Origin: Candidatus Atribacteria bacterium
GTDB taxonomy: Bacteria > Atribacterota > JALVIU01
Length of the DNA: 14,995 nucleotides
Assembly: GCA_027028665.1 (NCBI GenBank)
Contig: JALVIU010000110.1
Location: forward strand, 1-14,995
Direction: 5' to 3'
The notes under the pieces were generated by a model that ran no database searches, was not told the origin of the DNA, and saw nothing but the letters and a program-made list of their open reading frames with translations. The translations under genes were made by a program, and so were the position numbers. This document shows, piece by piece, positions 2,495 through 14,846 of the stretch; the stretch's first letter is position 1, and each line of letters opens with the position of its first letter.

Positions 2495-3637
2495 ATGAGG
2501 CTTGTAGGAATAAAATACTTATATGGTAGAAATTTCAAACTGGGAATAAATCTTTATGGCGTAGATGGAAAGCTGCTTTTAGCACGAGGTGCTACTCTTA
2601 CACCTCGTGCTATTGATCATCTAAAGAAGATCGGGATATGGGAGGTCTATATAGAAGATCCCGATACTACTGATATAGCAGTGGAAGGGGTTTTGGATGA
2701 ACTTACGAGAAGAAAGATCTTAATGGCAATTAATAAAGAATTTTCAAAGACCAGAATTGTTGAGGATAGGAAGTTTTTAGATATAGATCTTGAGGTATTT
2801 CGGGGTATTGTAAAAATAATATTAAAACATATATTTTTAAATAAACAAAAGCTTATAAATCTTTTAAATCTTAAAACTTTTGATGACTATATATATGTCC
2901 ACTCTCTTGATGTAACAATTTATTCTCTTATATTGGGGGTAGAGCTTGCCATACATGATGATAAGTTGGAACTTTTGGGTTTAGGGGCTATATTGCATGA
3001 TGTAGGTAAGCTTTTTTTGCCCTCACATATAATAAATAAAGAAGAAAAACTCACAGAAGAAGAGTACAATATTTTAAAATCTCATGTATTAATAGGATAT
3101 GATATTCTGGGTAAAATAATAGGAATGCCGACACTTTCTAAGACTATTACCCTTTTTCATCATGAGAGATATGATGGAACTGGATACCCAAGGGGACTTA
3201 AAAATGGAGAAATTCCTCTTTTTCCTCGTATAGTAGCTATTGCAGATGTATATGATGCATTAACTTCAGATAGACCCTGGAGAGAGGCATTTCTTCCTCA
3301 TATGGCCCTGGAATATCTATTAAGTGGTGGAGATACACTTTTTGAAAAGAGACTTGTAAGAACTTTTATGGAAAAAATAGCTGTATATCCACTTGCTACT
3401 ACAGTAAAACTGACAACAGGGGAGATTGGTGTAGTTAGAGATGTTAAGCCTGGTTTTTCCTCAAGGCCTACAGTAAGAATACTATATGACTCCTCAGGTA
3501 GAAGACTTAAAAGTGATGAGATATATGAGATAAATCTATTAGAAAAACCTTCTATTTTAATAGAAAAGGTTGTAAAAGCTGTAGACCCAAAAGACGAGAA
3601 AGGAGAAAATGAAAATATTAATAAAGTGGCAAGTTAA
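2495..3637 (+). CDS. HD-GYP domain protein (probable cyclic-di-GMP phosphodiesterase)
   Basis: A 380-residue soluble protein. Residues 1-60 form a small N-terminal region ending in LLARGATLTPRAIDHLKKIGIWEVYI, a segment often seen before HD-GYP domains. The catalytic domain spans about 125-300 and keeps the full signature: His136, LHDVGK with His168-Asp169, His197, HHERYDGTGYP with His222-His223, and IADVYDALTSDRPW with Asp251. Residues 300-350 look like a small beta domain. Such proteins hydrolyse cyclic di-GMP; intact metal ligands suggest activity. No transmembrane helix, receiver or GGDEF domain is present, so the input signal is unknown. The last 29 bases overlap the next gene, whose ribosome site lies in this gene's tail. 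A 12-bp inverted repeat lies in the coding sequence at 2580-2612. Confidence 0.9.
   Translation: MRLVGIKYLYGRNFKLGINLYGVDGKLLLARGATLTPRAIDHLKKIGIWEVYIEDPDTTDIAVEGVLDELTRRKILMAINKEFSKTRIVEDRKFLDIDLEVFRGIVKIILKHIFLNKQKLINLLNLKTFDDYIYVHSLDVTIYSLILGVELAIHDDKLELLGLGAILHDVGKLFLPSHIINKEEKLTEEEYNILKSHVLIGYDILGKIIGMPTLSKTITLFHHERYDGTGYPRGLKNGEIPLFPRIVAIADVYDALTSDRPWREAFLPHMALEYLLSGGDTLFEKRLVRTFMEKIAVYPLATTVKLTTGEIGVVRDVKPGFSSRPTVRILYDSSGRRLKSDEIYEINLLEKPSILIEKVVKAVDPKDEKGENENINKVAS
2580..2612 (+). repeat. 12-bp perfect inverted repeat inside the HD-GYP gene
   Basis: TAGCACGAGGTG at 2580-2591 and its exact reverse complement at 2601-2612 flank a 9-base spacer. In mRNA this makes a 12-bp, GC-rich stem early in the coding region (codons 29-40). 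No U tract follows, so it is not a classic terminator. The arms contain CGA and CGT Arg codons, uncommon in this AGA-rich sequence. Confidence 0.75.
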
Positions 3638-4418
3638 AATCTTTTTTATAAGTTTAATATTTTTTTTATTCCCAATCTCTTATGGTATGGCATCTTTTTA
3701 TAACAAAGGGGAAGTAGCTATAGGATATGGTTATAGTATAGGAGAGGGATTGGAGATAAAAGATAGAATAGAGGTAGGATTTGGAATAGGTCATAAACTT
3801 TCACTTAATTTTAATAAATCTGGTGCTGATTTTGATTTTGGTGTACTTTATAATTTAGGTTTTCCTTTTAAGCAAAAAGGTATTGCCTCTTGGTATGGTA
3901 AAGAAGACCACGGAGACCTTACCGCAAGTGGTGAACCCTATAATATGTATGCTTATACAGCAGCTCATAAGACTTTACCTTTTGGCACATTAGTCAAGGT
4001 TATAAACTTAAAAAATGGAAAAAGCGTTGTAGTAAGAATAAATGATAGAGGTCCTTTTGTAAAAAACCGTATAATAGATCTCTCATATGCAAGTGCAAAA
4101 AAAATTGGCTTAATAAAAGATGGAACTGCTCCTGTAATTATTCAGGCACTTGATGTCTCTGGCCTTTCCTTAAGTATGGGCTATCATATAGGTCCTTATA
4201 AAGATATCTTTCATATTGGTGGAGTATTAGAATTTCCTATAATAAAGGATATATCAGGTATATTTGAACTTAAATTCTCTCCAGAAGATGAGGAATTTCT
4301 ATATGGGGGAGGGGTACTTATAAATATTTCCTATCCCTTCAAGGTAAAGATTGGTATAGATAAATCATCTCTTTTTCACTCTCCGAATATTTTTCTTGAA
4401 ATGATGCTAAAGTTTTAA
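3609..4418 (+). CDS. Exported RlpA-like double-psi beta-barrel protein with beta-barrel-like flanks
   Basis: A 269-residue protein. Residues 1-28 are a signal peptide (Lys-rich start, IFFISLIFFLF core, likely cleavage after GMA) without a lipobox Cys, unlike lipoprotein RlpA. Residues 89-182 are an RlpA double-psi beta-barrel domain: GIASWYG (91-97), TASGEPYN with Glu109, His120 in AHKTLPFGT, and NDRGPF with Asp146. The Glu-His-Asp spacing of 11 and 26 residues equals that of the Pseudomonas RlpA catalytic residues as I recall them, so peptidoglycan cleavage of denuded glycan is plausible. Residues 34-88 and 186-269 alternate polar and hydrophobic residues, contain Gly/aromatic-rich strands and end in Phe, as outer-membrane barrel proteins do. 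No SPOR domain is present. AAAGGAG within the HD-GYP gene serves this ATG. The domain call is firm; the barrel idea is inference. Confidence 0.85.
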   Translation: MKILIKWQVKIFFISLIFFLFPISYGMASFYNKGEVAIGYGYSIGEGLEIKDRIEVGFGIGHKLSLNFNKSGADFDFGVLYNLGFPFKQKGIASWYGKEDHGDLTASGEPYNMYAYTAAHKTLPFGTLVKVINLKNGKSVVVRINDRGPFVKNRIIDLSYASAKKIGLIKDGTAPVIIQALDVSGLSLSMGYHIGPYKDIFHIGGVLEFPIIKDISGIFELKFSPEDEEFLYGGGVLINISYPFKVKIGIDKSSLFHSPNIFLEMMLKF

Positions 4419-8270: not shown

Positions 8271-9269
8271 ATGATACCCTTTCTTGCTTTTATTGTTTCT
8301 TTCTTTATATCTTATTTCCTTATACCTTACATAAAGAAGTTCGGCATAAGGACTAATATACTTGCATACCCAAATGAGAGAAGTGTGCATGAGGTACCTA
8401 TTCCTACCATGGGGGGTCTCTCTTTCTTTATAAGCTTCTTGTTTTCATTTCTACTTTTTGGGACTAGTTCTTCGCAAAAACCATTTCTTTTAGGTGCAAT
8501 TATTATTTTTATTGTAGGGTTAATAGATGATAGTACAGATCTAAAGCCTATGATAAAACTTTTAGGGCAAATAATTGGAGTAGGTGTATTTCTTCTTTTT
8601 TATATAATTATCTTTCCACATTCTATATTGAAAAATCCTTATATACTTTTTCTGGGATACATTTTTGTTTTGGTTGCTATAAATGCTATAAATCTTACAG
8701 ATGGATTAGATGGCCTTGCAGGAGGAATTTTTGTAATATCTTCTCTTATATTTCTATATATACTTGTGTCAGAGAAAGAGATCGTTTTACTTATATTCTC
8801 TCTTATCGGAGGGGTAATAGGATTTTTGTTTTTTAATTTTTATCCTGCATTTATATTTATGGGAGACACAGGGAGTAACTTTTTAGGATTTTCCTTAGGG
8901 GTGCTTTCTTTATATACTATAGAAGTATATAATATATTTCCAGGTATACTTTATGTTTTTCTTATTCTCTCTGTTCCCATACTTGATACAGTCTTTGCCA
9001 TTATAAGACGCTTTATTAGGAAACAGCCCATATTTAAAGCAGATAAGGGTCATATACACCACATACTCATTAGTTTAGGAGTTTCTCATCCAATGGCTGT
9101 AATTATTATATGGATTTTAGTGGCTTTATCCTTTATCCCTGTCTTTTTAGTTAATTTTGTAAAAGCAAGATTAATTCCGTCTCTTTTTATTGTATTTTTT
9201 TACTATTTTGTATTAATTTGCGGTATAATATATATAAATAGACTAAAAAAGAGGGGGCGAAAAGATTGA
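8271..9269 (+). CDS. Polyprenyl-phosphate sugar-1-phosphate transferase (WecA/TagO, MraY superfamily)
   Basis: A 332-residue protein with about ten membrane helices. It transfers a sugar-1-phosphate (in the family usually GlcNAc-1-P) from a UDP sugar to undecaprenyl phosphate at the inner face of the membrane, starting a glycan on its lipid carrier. Motifs: PIPTMGGL (43-50), GLIDDSTDLKP with Asp86/Asp87 (83-93), NAINLTDGLDGLAGG (138-152), FMGDTGSNFLG with Asp199 (196-206) and the HIHH loop (261-264) that marks WecA/TagO rather than MraY. The ATG follows the dnaB TAA with no gap, and the final TGA overlaps the next TTG start. The glycan it starts, and the sugar, cannot be read from the window. 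Confidence 0.92.
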   Translation: MIPFLAFIVSFFISYFLIPYIKKFGIRTNILAYPNERSVHEVPIPTMGGLSFFISFLFSFLLFGTSSSQKPFLLGAIIIFIVGLIDDSTDLKPMIKLLGQIIGVGVFLLFYIIIFPHSILKNPYILFLGYIFVLVAINAINLTDGLDGLAGGIFVISSLIFLYILVSEKEIVLLIFSLIGGVIGFLFFNFYPAFIFMGDTGSNFLGFSLGVLSLYTIEVYNIFPGILYVFLILSVPILDTVFAIIRRFIRKQPIFKADKGHIHHILISLGVSHPMAVIIIWILVALSFIPVFLVNFVKARLIPSLFIVFFYYFVLICGIIYINRLKKRGRKD

Positions 9270-10402
9270 AGAGATTCTATATATTTTTTCTTTTTATATT
9301 AGGGATTTTTGCACTTTTAAGTATTGCATACGCGGATACTTTTATAATTGCACCAGATGGATCATTGGCTGATTGGAAAGGGATAAAACCTTTTACCCTT
9401 TCTGATCCAAAATATATTGTATATAATAGGGCTTTATGGCATGGGAAAAACGATCTAAGTGCAAAACTTTATATTACCTCATCTAAAAAATATTTATATA
9501 TAGGTATCAAGGTAAGGGATGATTCCATTGTAGAGGCTCATAAGGATGATATAGGAGAAATATTAAGAAGTGACCATATAGAGGTGTGGGTAGATACCAA
9601 TCCAGAGAGAAAAAATAGAGATAAAATGGATAAATATGTGCATCAATTTATTTTTAAACTTACATCTGGAAATGGCAATTGTATAGAGTTATATCCAGAT
9701 AATGTAGAGCATATTAATACTATAGAGTATGCATATAGAAGAATAAAAGATGGGTATGTATTTGAGGCAAAGATTCCAGGCTTTTTATTAAATGCTCCAG
9801 AGGTGAGATTGTCCTCTTTAGGTATATTAGTAGATGTGGTGGACATAGATAAGGATGAGAGGGCAAGACAGGGTGTATTTTTATCTTTATCCCCAGGTAG
9901 AAAATGGGGAAAACCCAATACCTTTTATAAGTTAAATCTTTCTCCTCCCCTATATACTTTTGAAATATATAATGTAGCTTCTTATAGAGCCCTTTTCTAC
10001 TCAGATGTAAAATTTTTAGATAGAAATTTAGTATTTTATGCTAATTATTCAGATCATTCCTGGGTAGAATGCATCCACATTCTATCCTCTTTGAAAGGGA
10101 AAAAGTTGTTTTCAAAAAAATTTCCTATGGTAAATATCTATCCAGAAATAGTACACTATAATAAAAATACGACATTTATTACAATAAGAGGAGAGACTCT
10201 ACTGGGATACCCTGTATTGGAAGTATTTTTGATTTCAAAAGAGAGCTGTCAAAATATTGGTTTAGTAGTGTCAAAAGGATTAAGTGTATATCCTACCTTT
10301 GAAGATGTAGATGGTGATGGAAAACCTGAGATAGTATTGAATTATAGAGATGGTATACGCAAATATAAATATCTAAATGGGAGGTATAGACTTACAAATT
10401 GA
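9266..10402 (+). CDS. Secreted protein with CBM9-like domain
   Basis: A 378-residue exported protein. Signal peptide residues 1-23 (MKRFYIFF..., cleavage after AYA, no lipobox). Residues about 25-225 resemble the family 9 carbohydrate-binding fold: DGSLADWKGI, KLYITSSKKYLYIGIKVRDD, RSDHIEVWVDTNPE, HQFIF, YVFEAKIPGFLL and LGILVDVVDID. The C-terminal part has beta-rich stretches and DVDGDGKPEIVLNY (347-360), a calcium-binding-like loop of the FG-GAP/VCBS type. It probably binds a glycan outside the cytoplasmic membrane; no catalytic domain is seen. The start is TTG overlapping the TGA of the transferase gene by 4 bases, with GAGGGGG 9 bases before. This tight coupling suggests a link with the glycan started by that transferase, which is inference. 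Confidence 0.75.
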   Translation: MKRFYIFFLFILGIFALLSIAYADTFIIAPDGSLADWKGIKPFTLSDPKYIVYNRALWHGKNDLSAKLYITSSKKYLYIGIKVRDDSIVEAHKDDIGEILRSDHIEVWVDTNPERKNRDKMDKYVHQFIFKLTSGNGNCIELYPDNVEHINTIEYAYRRIKDGYVFEAKIPGFLLNAPEVRLSSLGILVDVVDIDKDERARQGVFLSLSPGRKWGKPNTFYKLNLSPPLYTFEIYNVASYRALFYSDVKFLDRNLVFYANYSDHSWVECIHILSSLKGKKLFSKKFPMVNIYPEIVHYNKNTTFITIRGETLLGYPVLEVFLISKESCQNIGLVVSKGLSVYPTFEDVDGDGKPEIVLNYRDGIRKYKYLNGRYRLTN

Positions 10403-11007
10403 AACCAATAGTACTTAAAGTGCCAGTTGAACCAAATCCAGTAGAGATAAAGAAATATCTTGGAGAGAAAAAGGGTGTAACCCAGATTGGCCCCAATATA
10501 GAAGAGATCATAGAGAGAATGATAAAAATAGGGAAAGACCTTACTTCTCCTATGGGTGCATATAGTGTTATGAAGATATTAGAAAGGTATGAAGATATGA
10601 TAAGACTTGAAAAATTTGTACTCCCGGGAAAACGGATATCCCATGTGTTAAAAAACAGTTTATATGTAGTCTTACTTGCAACAACCATTGGAAATAAATT
10701 GGAGAAAAAGGTAGAGGACCTGGAAAAGGAGAAGAGATTTACAGAGGCACTTATATTGGATGCAGTGGGTTCAACTACATCTGATCAGGCTATGGATTTT
10801 CTGCATGCCAATATAAGAGGAGAATTTCAACGCAAAGGCTTTTCCCTTACAATGAGATTTAGCCCCGGTTATGGAGACCTCCCCTTAAATATTCAGCCTG
10901 ACCTTATTCACTTTTCTGGAGGAGAACAGATAGGGATAGAGGTTACCTCATCCTATATGATGATTCCCAGAAAGTCTGTAAGTGCTATTATAGGACTTGA
11001 TAAATAG
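10399..11007 (+). CDS. Stand-alone methionine synthase reactivation (AdoMet-binding) domain
   Basis: A 202-residue protein corresponding to the activation domain at the C-terminus of long MetH. Key blocks: LEKFVLPGKRISHVL, DAVGSTTSDQAMDF (121-134), RFSPGYGD (153-160), which matches the AdoMet-binding RxxxGYG motif, and MIPRKSVSAIIGL (188-200). It should bind S-adenosylmethionine and allow reductive remethylation of oxidised cob(II)alamin in the next gene's product, which lacks this domain. Such splitting is known in Thermotoga. The start is TTG at 10399, overlapping the preceding TGA by 4 bases, with GGGAGG about 13 bases before. The electron donor is not encoded here. Confidence 0.9.
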   Translation: MKPIVLKVPVEPNPVEIKKYLGEKKGVTQIGPNIEEIIERMIKIGKDLTSPMGAYSVMKILERYEDMIRLEKFVLPGKRISHVLKNSLYVVLLATTIGNKLEKKVEDLEKEKRFTEALILDAVGSTTSDQAMDFLHANIRGEFQRKGFSLTMRFSPGYGDLPLNIQPDLIHFSGGEQIGIEVTSSYMMIPRKSVSAIIGLDK

Positions 11008-11022
11008 AAAGGAGTTACACAG

Positions 11023-13368
11023 ATGGAAGATATCCTTAAGCGATTAGAAAAGGGTGTGCTTATATTGGATGGTGCTATGGGTACAGAGCTTTATAAAAGA
11101 GGACTTGACCCGTTTGCCATCCCTGAAGAGCTAAATCTTACCAATCCAGAAATGATTATATCTGTTCATAGAGATTATCTGGATGCAGGGGCAGATATTC
11201 TTACTACCAATAGCTTTGGTGGAAATAGATATAAACTCACACTAAAAGGACTTGGGGATAAGGTATATAATATAAACAGACGGGCTGCCGAGATTGCAAG
11301 AGGTGTTGCAAAAGATAAGGCGTATGTAGCAGGCTCTATGGGGCCTATAGGAAAAATGATTGCACCCCTTGGCGATATTTCCTTCGAAGAGGCAGTCTCG
11401 TATTATAAAGAACAAGGTAAGGCGCTGGCAGATGGAGGAGTAGACTTTTTTCTGGTTGAAACACAGATAGATATACAAGAGGTAAAGGCTGCTATTTTAG
11501 GACTTAGGGATGCTGCAAATCTTCCTATTGCAGTATCTATTACGTATACAGAAGGAACCCTTACAGTTACAGGGACATCACCAGATATTGCAGGTGTAAA
11601 TGTGGAGGCATTTGGCGCAGATATTGTAGGTACCAATTGTGGTGCTGACCCCTTTATTTTTCCGGAACTTATAGATCTTCTAAGGCCTAACACAAGCCTT
11701 CCCATTATTACATATCCCAATGCAGGCCCCCCTGATAGATGGGATGAGGTATCCCCTGAGGTATTCTATTCTCTCATTGAGTCATTATATAAGAAAGGTG
11801 CTAATATAGTTGGGGGGTGTTGTGGTACTACCCCATATCATATAAAGCTATTGGCAAGTAGACTAAAAGGTAGAGAACACGCCGTAAATTACCATTCGAT
11901 AAAGCCGAAGTTTGCCTTAACAGGAAGAAACAAGAAGGTTATACCGGGAGAGAAGACTATTGTTATAGGTGAACGTATAAACCCTTCACGGAAAAAAGAT
12001 TTCCTGGAAGAACTTAGAAACGGAAATCTTGAAACCCTAAAGAGGGAAGCTATAGATCAAGAAACAAATGGGGCAGATATGTTAGATCTTAATGTAGGGG
12101 TACCCCAGGCAGATAGAAAAAAGATAATGAGAATGGCAACAGAAGAGCTTATAAAGCTTTCAAAACTTCCTTTAGTATTTGATAGTGATGAGGTGGATGT
12201 ATTAGAAGAAGGACTAAGAATCTATCCGGGCAAGCCCCTTATAAATTCTACTACATCTAAAAAAGAAGACCTTATGCAAAAACTTCCTATTGCAAAAAAG
12301 TATGGTGGAGGGATAGTAGTTTTACCTATTACAGAAGATGGTATTCCAGAAACTGCAAAAGAGAGAGTAAAGGCCCTTGAAATTGTTTTTAAATTGGCAG
12401 AGGAGTTTGGCATTCCATTTTCTCATCTGATAGTAGATCCCCTTGTACTACCCCTTGGGGCAAAGGATGTTCGAGTAACCTTGGATACTCTAAAGATGAT
12501 AAAAGAGAGTTTTGGAGTTTATACTATTATGGGGGTCTCCAATGTATCCCATGGACTACCCTTTAGGGCGAAGATAAACAACACATTTTTATCTATGGCT
12601 ATTCAGAATGGATTAGATATGGTAATAATGGATCCCCTTCAAGAAGGAATGAAGGAGACTGTATTAATATCTGATTTTATATTAAGAAAAGATGAAAAAG
12701 GTACACGATTTATAGGTTTTGCCCAAAATCAGACAGCTACATTCCAGATAAATGATCTTAGGGATATGATTATATATGGAGAAAAAGAAAAGGCCCAGAA
12801 GGAGGCAAAAAGGCTCATACAAGAAGGAAGGGAACCTTTCTCATTGATAGAGGACTTTATTATGCCTGCCCTTCAAGTAGTAGGGGAAAAATACGATAAA
12901 AAGATTTTCTTTCTTCCACAGCTTATATCTTCTGCAGAAGTAGCACAGGCTATATTTGAAATAGTAAAGTCTCATATGAAGAAGATGGATACAAGGAAAA
13001 AGGCAACCATACTTATGGCTACAGTAGAGGGAGATTTACACGACTTGGGGAAGAGAATCGTTGGCCTTGTGTGTGATAGTTTTGGGTATAAAACTATAGA
13101 TTTAGGAAAGGATGTACCGGTAAAAGATATAATCTCTGCTATTGAAAAATATAAACCAGATGCAGTAGGGCTAAGTGCGCTTATGACTACTACATTAAAG
13201 AGTATGGAAAAAGGCGTAAAAAAGATAAAAGAAAAATTCCCACATATCTTTGTAATGGTTGGAGGGGCAATGGTAACAAAGAGTTTTGCAGAAAGTATCG
13301 GAGCAGATGGGTATGGGAGAGATGCCTTTGGGGCAGTAAAGTTATTGGAAGAAAAGTTTGCAAAATAG
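11023..13368 (+). CDS. metH: Cobalamin-dependent methionine synthase, lacking the activation domain
   Basis: A 781-residue enzyme moving a methyl group from methyltetrahydrofolate to homocysteine through B12. Domains: homocysteine-binding barrel (about 1-295) with DGAMGT (16-21) and zinc ligands Cys206 and Cys266-Cys267 (GTNCG, GGCCGTT); pterin-binding barrel (about 310-575) with GERINPSRK, DMLDLNVGVP and IMGVSNVSHGLP; B12 cap domain (about 580-655) with LPQLISSAEVAQAIF; and B12-binding Rossmann domain (about 658-781) with EGDLHDLGKR, His673 being the lower cobalt ligand, then GLSALMTTT and VGGAMV. About 1,220 residues is usual for E. coli MetH; the missing C-terminal part is the separate gene upstream. 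AAAGGAG lies 9 bases before the ATG. All catalytic residues look whole. Confidence 0.95.
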   Translation: MEDILKRLEKGVLILDGAMGTELYKRGLDPFAIPEELNLTNPEMIISVHRDYLDAGADILTTNSFGGNRYKLTLKGLGDKVYNINRRAAEIARGVAKDKAYVAGSMGPIGKMIAPLGDISFEEAVSYYKEQGKALADGGVDFFLVETQIDIQEVKAAILGLRDAANLPIAVSITYTEGTLTVTGTSPDIAGVNVEAFGADIVGTNCGADPFIFPELIDLLRPNTSLPIITYPNAGPPDRWDEVSPEVFYSLIESLYKKGANIVGGCCGTTPYHIKLLASRLKGREHAVNYHSIKPKFALTGRNKKVIPGEKTIVIGERINPSRKKDFLEELRNGNLETLKREAIDQETNGADMLDLNVGVPQADRKKIMRMATEELIKLSKLPLVFDSDEVDVLEEGLRIYPGKPLINSTTSKKEDLMQKLPIAKKYGGGIVVLPITEDGIPETAKERVKALEIVFKLAEEFGIPFSHLIVDPLVLPLGAKDVRVTLDTLKMIKESFGVYTIMGVSNVSHGLPFRAKINNTFLSMAIQNGLDMVIMDPLQEGMKETVLISDFILRKDEKGTRFIGFAQNQTATFQINDLRDMIIYGEKEKAQKEAKRLIQEGREPFSLIEDFIMPALQVVGEKYDKKIFFLPQLISSAEVAQAIFEIVKSHMKKMDTRKKATILMATVEGDLHDLGKRIVGLVCDSFGYKTIDLGKDVPVKDIISAIEKYKPDAVGLSALMTTTLKSMEKGVKKIKEKFPHIFVMVGGAMVTKSFAESIGADGYGRDAFGAVKLLEEKFAK

Positions 13369-13386: not shown

Positions 13387-13728
13387 ATGGAGAGAGAAGA
13401 GAGACCTTGGGGAAGATATGAGGTACTTGAAGAAGGAGATACATACAAGGTAAAGAGGATAGAAGTAGATCCAGGAAAGAGATTAAGTCTTCAATCCCAT
13501 AAAAAGAGGAATGAATATTGGGTCGTAGTAAAAGGACCTGCAGGTATAGTACTTGATAATGAGGAATTTCTCTTAGAAGAGGGGAAGATGGTTTATATTC
13601 CTATAGGTGCAAAACATAGGCTTTTTAATACAAATGATTATACTATAAAGGTAATAGAGATACAGTATGGCACATACTTTGGAGAAGATGATATAATAAG
13701 ATATGAAGATGATTATAAAAGAGCGTGA
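13387..13728 (+). CDS. Free-standing cupin like the phosphomannose isomerase (type II) domain of ManC
   Basis: A 113-residue single-domain cupin. RPWGRYEVLEEGDTYKVKRI, then the first cupin motif PGKRLSLQSHKKRNEYWVVVKG split as PGKRLSLQSH (metal-binding His) and RNEYWVVVKG, then IPIGAKHRLFN and the ending YGTYFGEDDIIRYEDDY. This matches the C-terminal domain of bifunctional mannose-1-phosphate guanylyltransferase/mannose-6-phosphate isomerase. Here the nucleotidyltransferase part is absent and the protein starts properly, with GGAGG before the ATG, so it is a whole small gene rather than a fragment. It may be a mannose-6-phosphate isomerase or another sugar-phosphate cupin; the substrate is not shown. 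It follows metH by 18 bp. Confidence 0.82.
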   Translation: MEREERPWGRYEVLEEGDTYKVKRIEVDPGKRLSLQSHKKRNEYWVVVKGPAGIVLDNEEFLLEEGKMVYIPIGAKHRLFNTNDYTIKVIEIQYGTYFGEDDIIRYEDDYKRA

Positions 13729-13742
13729 GGGGAGGGCTATGT

Positions 13743-14846
13743 ATGGATGATTTTGAGAATAAGGATACAATCAATAATCCAAGAGAATCAGAAGGATTAA
13801 GTGAAGATGTAAATAAAGAAATAGTAAAAGATAAAATTAATGCGGAGAAAGAAATCCAAGATAATACCTATGAAGAAGGGGTAAATGCTGAAGAGAAAAA
13901 AGAGATAGAGAAGGAAGGGGAAGAAACTAAAACCTTACCTAAGCTTGAGAAGCTTGAAGAGTGGAAATATGCCTTCTTGAGGGTTCATTATAGATTTATT
14001 CCATTTTTTCATAAGGACTATATTAAGAGTAGAAGATGGTTTGGGTTTTTAGGACCTTTTCATCCCTATGGGATACTTAATAATGTCTATAGATTTCTTG
14101 CAGATGTATTTGAATATAAAAACAAAAAAAGAAAGTATATAGGAACTATTACAGAGCCAGGAATAAAAGAGAAAAAGTATCGTACCATCTATTACCGTGC
14201 TATGTTTATTTATACACCTTCTGGTGAATTAGATCCTACAAATGAAATATGTGAAGATACTCCTCAGGAACACAGAATAAACATTGATCCTGAAAAGCCA
14301 CCAAAGCTCTGTTTTTATGCCAATCTTCAAAGTATAACTCCCCCTGATTATTTTAAAGATCATCAAGTGCAACAAAGAGAAAAAGAGTTTCACGAAACCA
14401 TCTGGGCAGTTCCTATAAATGCATTAAAATATATACCTGTACTTATCTTTTCCAAGAAGAAGACAAAGATTATGGAATTAGGAGAACTATATGATATAAA
14501 TAATGAGTTTGTAAAAGGTGATGGAGATCTTACACTGAATGAAAATGTGATAAAGAAAATACTTACATTGGGAGCAGTAGCTTTTGATCTTGAGTACACA
14601 AAAGAGGGGACCTCTTTTAGAGTAGCATCTATCCATAGAGCTCCATGGAAGAGATTACTTACCTTTGGTATATGGAAAGATTACTATATAAAGATTTATG
14701 ATGAAAGGTATAATAGACTAGATTTTAAAGTCTTTCTTTCCCTTATTACTGATATGATTAATAATAGAGGAAGAATTAGAAAGCATGTGAGAGGAAATAT
14801 GGAATTAAAAGTTCCTGTAAGGAATATTATGCGTTATTCTACCTAA
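13743..14846 (+). CDS. Uncharacterised 367-residue protein with charged disordered N-terminal tail
   Basis: I do not recognise this family. ATG 13743 is preferred over the GTG at 13725 because GAGGGGAGGG lies 6 to 15 bases before it and the GTG overlaps the cupin stop. Residues 1-70 are almost all charged or polar (Glu, Lys, Asp, Asn), likely disordered. Residues 72-360 look folded and aromatic-rich: EEWKYAFLRVHYRFIPFFHKDY, RRWFGFLGPFHPYGILNNVYRF, YRTIYYRAMFIY, GAVAFDLEYTKEGTSFRVASIHRAPW and a basic C-terminus NNRGRIRKHVRG. There are only two Cys (170, 190). There is no signal peptide, clear transmembrane helix or nucleotide-binding motif, so it is probably cytoplasmic or membrane-associated. 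Codon use matches its neighbours, so no sign of recent transfer. Confidence 0.85.
   Translation: MDDFENKDTINNPRESEGLSEDVNKEIVKDKINAEKEIQDNTYEEGVNAEEKKEIEKEGEETKTLPKLEKLEEWKYAFLRVHYRFIPFFHKDYIKSRRWFGFLGPFHPYGILNNVYRFLADVFEYKNKKRKYIGTITEPGIKEKKYRTIYYRAMFIYTPSGELDPTNEICEDTPQEHRINIDPEKPPKLCFYANLQSITPPDYFKDHQVQQREKEFHETIWAVPINALKYIPVLIFSKKKTKIMELGELYDINNEFVKGDGDLTLNENVIKKILTLGAVAFDLEYTKEGTSFRVASIHRAPWKRLLTFGIWKDYYIKIYDERYNRLDFKVFLSLITDMINNRGRIRKHVRGNMELKVPVRNIMRYST

Follow-up and report, generated by a model that had tools for sequence, protein, structure and literature searches.

A candidate outer-membrane-anchored RlpA with its double-psi beta-barrel domain set between two strand-rich flanks

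Outer-membrane enzymes that act on the cell wall, RlpA among them, are known in lipid-anchored form. RlpA itself, a septal ring lytic transglycosylase (for example, in Pseudomonas aeruginosa), is a lipoprotein, and the layout that we found among RlpA proteins elsewhere is mostly a lipobox, a double-psi beta-barrel (DPBB) and a SPOR domain: the lipobox is present in most of the proteins compared and SPOR is carried by 55 of 68. In the case of the RlpA-like DPBB of PA4485 (PDB 4avr), the solved chain consists of the domain alone (94 residues). Proteins that combine an outer-membrane barrel with a wall-binding part carry the latter at one end of the chain, C-terminally in OmpA and as an N-terminal SLH domain in OmpM; in the ushers PapC and FimD, a folded domain is inserted between the strands of the outer-membrane barrel. 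The plug domain of the chaperone-usher pilus ushers has been described (PMC4356140).

Here we analyze an rlpA-like gene in a 14,995-nucleotide stretch of DNA (hereafter, the window) from a Candidatus Atribacteria bacterium, the product of which is most likely an outer-membrane-anchored RlpA (Table 1). The protein shares with the RlpA lipoprotein the DPBB and the conserved Glu, His and Asp residues, and with PA4485 the predicted fold. Unlike the former, it has neither a lipobox nor a SPOR domain, and unlike either, its DPBB is embedded between two strand-rich flanks. If these flanks indeed form a barrel, the protein would resemble OmpA and OmpM in joining a barrel in the membrane to a wall-interacting part in the periplasm, with the difference that this part interrupts the sequence of the barrel and is a member of an enzyme family. 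It would likewise resemble PapC and FimD in holding a folded domain between barrel strands; the ushers, however, are large translocation pores with a gating plug and no enzyme domain, and we found no sequence relation to them. A search of titles and abstracts for RlpA together with beta-barrel terms retrieved no barrel-embedded RlpA, and no literature on RlpA in Dictyoglomus was found.

Table 1. Coordinates of the rlpA-like gene, its parts and its upstream neighbor in the window
Feature	Position	Strand	Details
HD-GYP-type phosphodiesterase gene, upstream	2495..3637	+	Pfam HD_5, E 2e-27
Shine-Dalgarno-like AAAGGAG	3599..3605	+	Lies in the upstream HD-GYP gene, at its 3′ end; read from sequence
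rlpA-like ORF	3609-4418	+	ATG start, 269 aa
Signal peptide-like N-terminus, residues 1-28	3609..3692	+	Lys-rich start, FFISLIFFLF core
N-terminal flank, residues 29-88	3693..3872	+	Alternation p 0.011; AlphaFold2 strands at low pLDDT
Turn motif F85-P86-F87, directly before the DPBB	3861..3869	+	[FY]-P-[FI] motif
RlpA DPBB, residues 89-182	3873..4154	+	Pfam, TIGR00413, 4avr alignment, AlphaFold2
C-terminal flank, residues 183-269	4155..4415	+	Alternation p 0.006; AlphaFold2 strands at low pLDDT

A strong ribosome-binding site precedes the start codon of the rlpA-like ORF; the joined string AAAGGAGAAAATG is found at a single place in the window, where 0.01 occurrences would be expected. The ORF shares its first 29 bases (3609-3637) with the upstream gene for an HD-GYP-type phosphodiesterase. 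The two genes are probably co-transcribed and, since the ribosome-binding site lies within the end of the HD-GYP gene, probably also translated as a pair. The overlap hints at a possible tie between wall remodelling and cyclic-di-nucleotide signalling. A sequencing or assembly chimera is an unlikely source of the composite protein, because two exact in-frame joins would be needed: the reading frame is single and unbroken, and barrel-like sequence flanks a complete domain on either side.

At the domain level, membership in the RlpA family is clear. The protein exceeds the curated cut-offs of both Pfam PF03330 (DPBB_1; residues 89-176, 101.6 bits against a cut-off of 28.8, E 2.8e-29) and TIGR00413 (rlpA; 158.4 bits against 82.15). 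Residues 90-182 align with PDB 4avr, and the DPBB, predicted by AlphaFold2 with homologue rows at pLDDT 95-98, superimposes on this structure with a Z of 21.6 and an rmsd of 0.5 over 94 residues. In the alignment of 68 proteins, Asp146 and Asp157 are invariant (68/68), whereas Glu109 and His120 are conserved in at least 90%; all four are kept here. The catalytic Asp has been assigned to Asp168 in P. aeruginosa RlpA, and its replacement by Ser leaves the E. coli protein inactive (PMC9712689); whichever of the two conserved Asp residues corresponds to Asp168, both are intact. Most likely, the domain acts on glycan strands in the manner of an RlpA-type lytic transglycosylase, or at a minimum binds them, and we infer catalysis and a role in cell-wall remodelling or separation.

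In an unrooted tree built on a sample chosen by similarity, the RlpA domain groups with a set from Campylobacterota, Thermodesulfobacteriota and Pseudomonadota, apart from the seven same-phylum sequences (support 100/97), and it may plausibly have been acquired from bacteria of the former type. The same-phylum RlpA proteins, considered as candidates for the same architecture, were set aside: they have an unrelated N-terminal region and a C-terminal DPBB. The architecture did not recur among the RlpA proteins compared or among the genomes of the phylum covered, of which that of the host is the sole one of its class.

The N-terminus looks like an ordinary signal peptide, probably cleaved after GMA, through which the protein would be exported. 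None of its 269 residues is a Cys, so that no lipobox is possible and the protein cannot be a lipoprotein. The Pfam scan yielded DPBB_1 only, with neither a SPOR domain, C-terminal or otherwise, nor an OmpA-like peptidoglycan-binding domain in the protein. Thus, the first-pass annotation, which had assigned residues 89-182 to an RlpA domain with Glu109, His120 and Asp146 and had noted that the lipobox and SPOR are missing, is borne out by the domain models and the 68-protein alignment on the first point and by the Cys count and the Pfam scan on the second.

Both flanks display a two-residue alternation of aromatic or aliphatic residues with small ones (p values in Table 1). The same test gave p 0.93 for the DPBB, p 0.023 for the BamA barrel of the host genome, used as a positive control, and p 0.83 for the POTRA part of the same protein. 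For the two flanks combined, the alternation z is 3.7, and none of 890 background segments of 147 aa, drawn from neighboring ORFs and ORFs of relatives, scores as high; this result is stable across two further hydrophobicity scales and three window lengths. The flanks of relatives (117 segments) reach at most 1.2. It should be noted that the alternation does not separate membrane from soluble barrels: YceI, a lipocalin-like soluble protein, scores comparably to the flanks (z 3.26), whereas the true membrane barrels OmpX, OmpW and PagP score just 0.3-1.4. Aromatic residues make up a fraction of 0.32 of the hydrophobic face of the flanks, and Gly, Ala, Ser and Asn make up 0.40 of the opposite face; the corresponding ranges are 0.29-0.46 and 0.32-0.51 in E. 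coli OmpX, OmpA, OmpW, NanC and PagP, whereas the small-residue fraction in soluble controls is lower than in the flanks (0.16-0.31). The chain ends with NIFLEMMLKF, its final residue being the aromatic Phe269, although the Gly of the usual beta-signal is missing from the last residues.

AlphaFold2 draws four strands before the DPBB (about residues 37-41, 52-58, 62-68 and 75-81), the last of which runs on to residue 87 as the alternating FDFGVLYNLGFPF, and five after it (about 188-194, 202-208, 216-222, 240-250 and 261-266); with a further alternating stretch at 229-238, the C-terminal flank would hold about six (model residue numbers plus 28 give the protein numbering). This run used homologue rows for the DPBB only, which fixed the DPBB and not the flanks; pLDDT in the flanks spans about 30-64 and stays under 50 for the majority of residues, and a run on the single full-length sequence gave a pLDDT of 35. 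Because of these values, the modelled strands are taken only as agreeing with the alternation, and the closed membrane barrel is one that we infer. Foldseek and VIA-align returned significant matches to DPBB folds only, in a search that in effect covered the DPBB alone.

The motif [FY]-P-[FI] occurs three times in the flanks (FPF at 85-87, FPI at 209-211 and YPF at 242-244; P 0.003 in shuffled flanks). Similar xP[LI] hairpin turns are found in the BamA of the host and in a 409-aa barrel-like protein of the same genome: IGTPLSEDMKLYL, YRIPLSSNFQGVLF and LKQPIKDTDLTPIY. The strand-ending turns are IGTPLSED, YRIPLSSN and VDTPLGPI in BamA and LKQPIKDT in the 409-aa protein. In BamA-type barrels such hairpins sit on the periplasmic side, and the [FY]-P-[FI] motifs are likely periplasmic turns. 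Because the DPBB follows directly on the FPF motif and on an even number of strands (four), the periplasmic side is the best reading of its location. The 409-aa protein itself (L108, contig C137) ends in Trp-Ser-Phe and has a sub-threshold match to OMP_b-brl.

Accounts of the flanks given in the first-pass annotation fared unevenly. The Gly/aromatic alternating strands on both sides of the domain and the Phe at the chain end were recovered, and a periplasmic location of the domain is favored by the even strand number before the insert. Of its proposal that RlpA is inserted in an outer-membrane barrel-like protein, the amphipathic strand flanks and the lack of a lipid anchor stand; as to the closed barrel, structure prediction drew strands at the low confidence given above and neither refuted nor confidently confirmed it.

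Homologues of the flanks (residues 29-88 and 183-269) were found neither in Pfam nor in PDB, nor in viral contigs, and the C-terminal flank has no match in PHROGs. The best match to the C-terminal flank in other genomes of the phylum (E 0.005) was unconvincing, as it falls in a stretch with stops, and a match to the C-terminal flank on contig C139 of the host genome (E 0.2) was rejected since it overlies ordinary genes.

The host is a heat-loving diderm, with an outer membrane and a BamA (Omp85; E 1.2e-52) encoded in its genome (G+C 34.6%). A TamB-like C-terminus lies just upstream of this BamA, an arrangement described for D. turgidum (PMC5167688). Taken with the G+C value and the gene content, this arrangement suggests a bacterium akin to Dictyoglomus. 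As regards the link between outer membrane and wall in the host lineage, no LolA, SPOR domain or SLH/OmpM was detected in the host genome, a draft about 90% complete in which absences are provisional, and the sole OmpA-like domain found in it is in MotB, adjoining MotA. Pal and Lol are confined to Gracilicutes, and most diderm Terrabacteria use OmpM instead (PMC10628300). The host may therefore lack a path by which lipoproteins reach its outer membrane, which would provide a rationale for a barrel-embedded RlpA.

The explanation that we favor, and consider fairly probable, is an outer-membrane barrel carrying the RlpA DPBB in a periplasmic turn, where it would act on peptidoglycan in place of a lipid anchor and SPOR. 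After export and removal of the signal peptide, the protein would be taken up by BamA and placed in the outer membrane, forming a small barrel with about 8-10 beta-strands. The periplasmic turn that follows strand four would contain the DPBB, which, held at both ends at the inner side of this membrane, would reach the peptidoglycan, the barrel standing in for the lipid anchor as well as for the SPOR targeting domain. A broader scenario, to which we give slightly less than an even chance, is that in a diderm lineage devoid of detectable lipoprotein sorting, OmpA/Pal-type domain, OmpM and SPOR, an acquired RlpA was spliced into a periplasmic turn of a small barrel, and a single protein ties the outer membrane to the wall and also cuts the latter.

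The comparable alternation of YceI would also suit a free periplasmic enzyme whose flanks fold as an extra soluble domain, either a beta-sandwich or lipocalin-like, that is split by RlpA and binds glycan. The pairing of a DPBB with a beta-sandwich is known in expansins, which are present among the DPBB fold matches; in expansins, however, the second domain comes after the DPBB rather than on both sides of it. Given also that the aromatic and Gly/Ala/Ser/Asn faces of the flanks are nearer to membrane barrels than to soluble controls, that the turn motifs are like those of the host BamA and that the chain ends in Phe, we deem the soluble domain unlikely.

Two further alternatives keep the barrel and change what the DPBB does or where it is. 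In one, the RlpA domain is mainly a peptidoglycan tether, with little or no cutting, in place of Pal, OmpA or OmpM. E. coli RlpA has been reported as structural and non-catalytic (PMC9712689), the OmpA-like and SLH/OmpM findings in the draft host genome are in line with such a need, and the separate SLT-domain lytic transglycosylase encoded by the host makes a tethering role possible; nevertheless, the acidic and His residues conserved in the family remain in place, and a mere tether seems improbable to us. In the other, an odd strand count would place the DPBB on the cell surface, acting on the walls of other cells or on polysaccharide. Strand counts do depend on the low-confidence flanks, but AlphaFold2 gives an even number ahead of the insert, and the insert comes directly after the turn motif resembling those of the host BamA, which leaves the surface location very improbable.

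If the favored reading, a barrel with the RlpA domain in a periplasmic turn, is true, it would represent a barrel-embedded peptidoglycan enzyme and a new way of holding RlpA at the outer membrane. We know of no obvious way in which diderms without Lol sorting place such enzymes there, and a barrel with an enzyme loop would solve this in one chain. Dictyoglomus-like cells are reported to form rotund bodies, cell aggregates within one shared outer membrane (PMC10665443), and a barrel-embedded RlpA would bear on the linkage of outer membrane and wall in these cells.

Several other genes of the window deserve mention. Cobalamin-dependent methionine synthase is split across two genes, a separately encoded activation domain (10399-11007; PF02965, E 3.8e-07) lying ahead of the gene for the main chain (11023-13368), which has the homocysteine, pterin and B12 domains. 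In a 373-aa ORF at 13725-14846, for which Pfam gave no match, the N-terminal region is highly charged. Finally, the gene at 9266-10402 follows a dnaB-like gene and a gene for a glycosyltransferase-like membrane protein, in a series of genes that otherwise have housekeeping functions; its product looks exported, carries a CBM9-like domain (E 4.6e-13) and has a weak C-terminal FG-GAP-like repeat.
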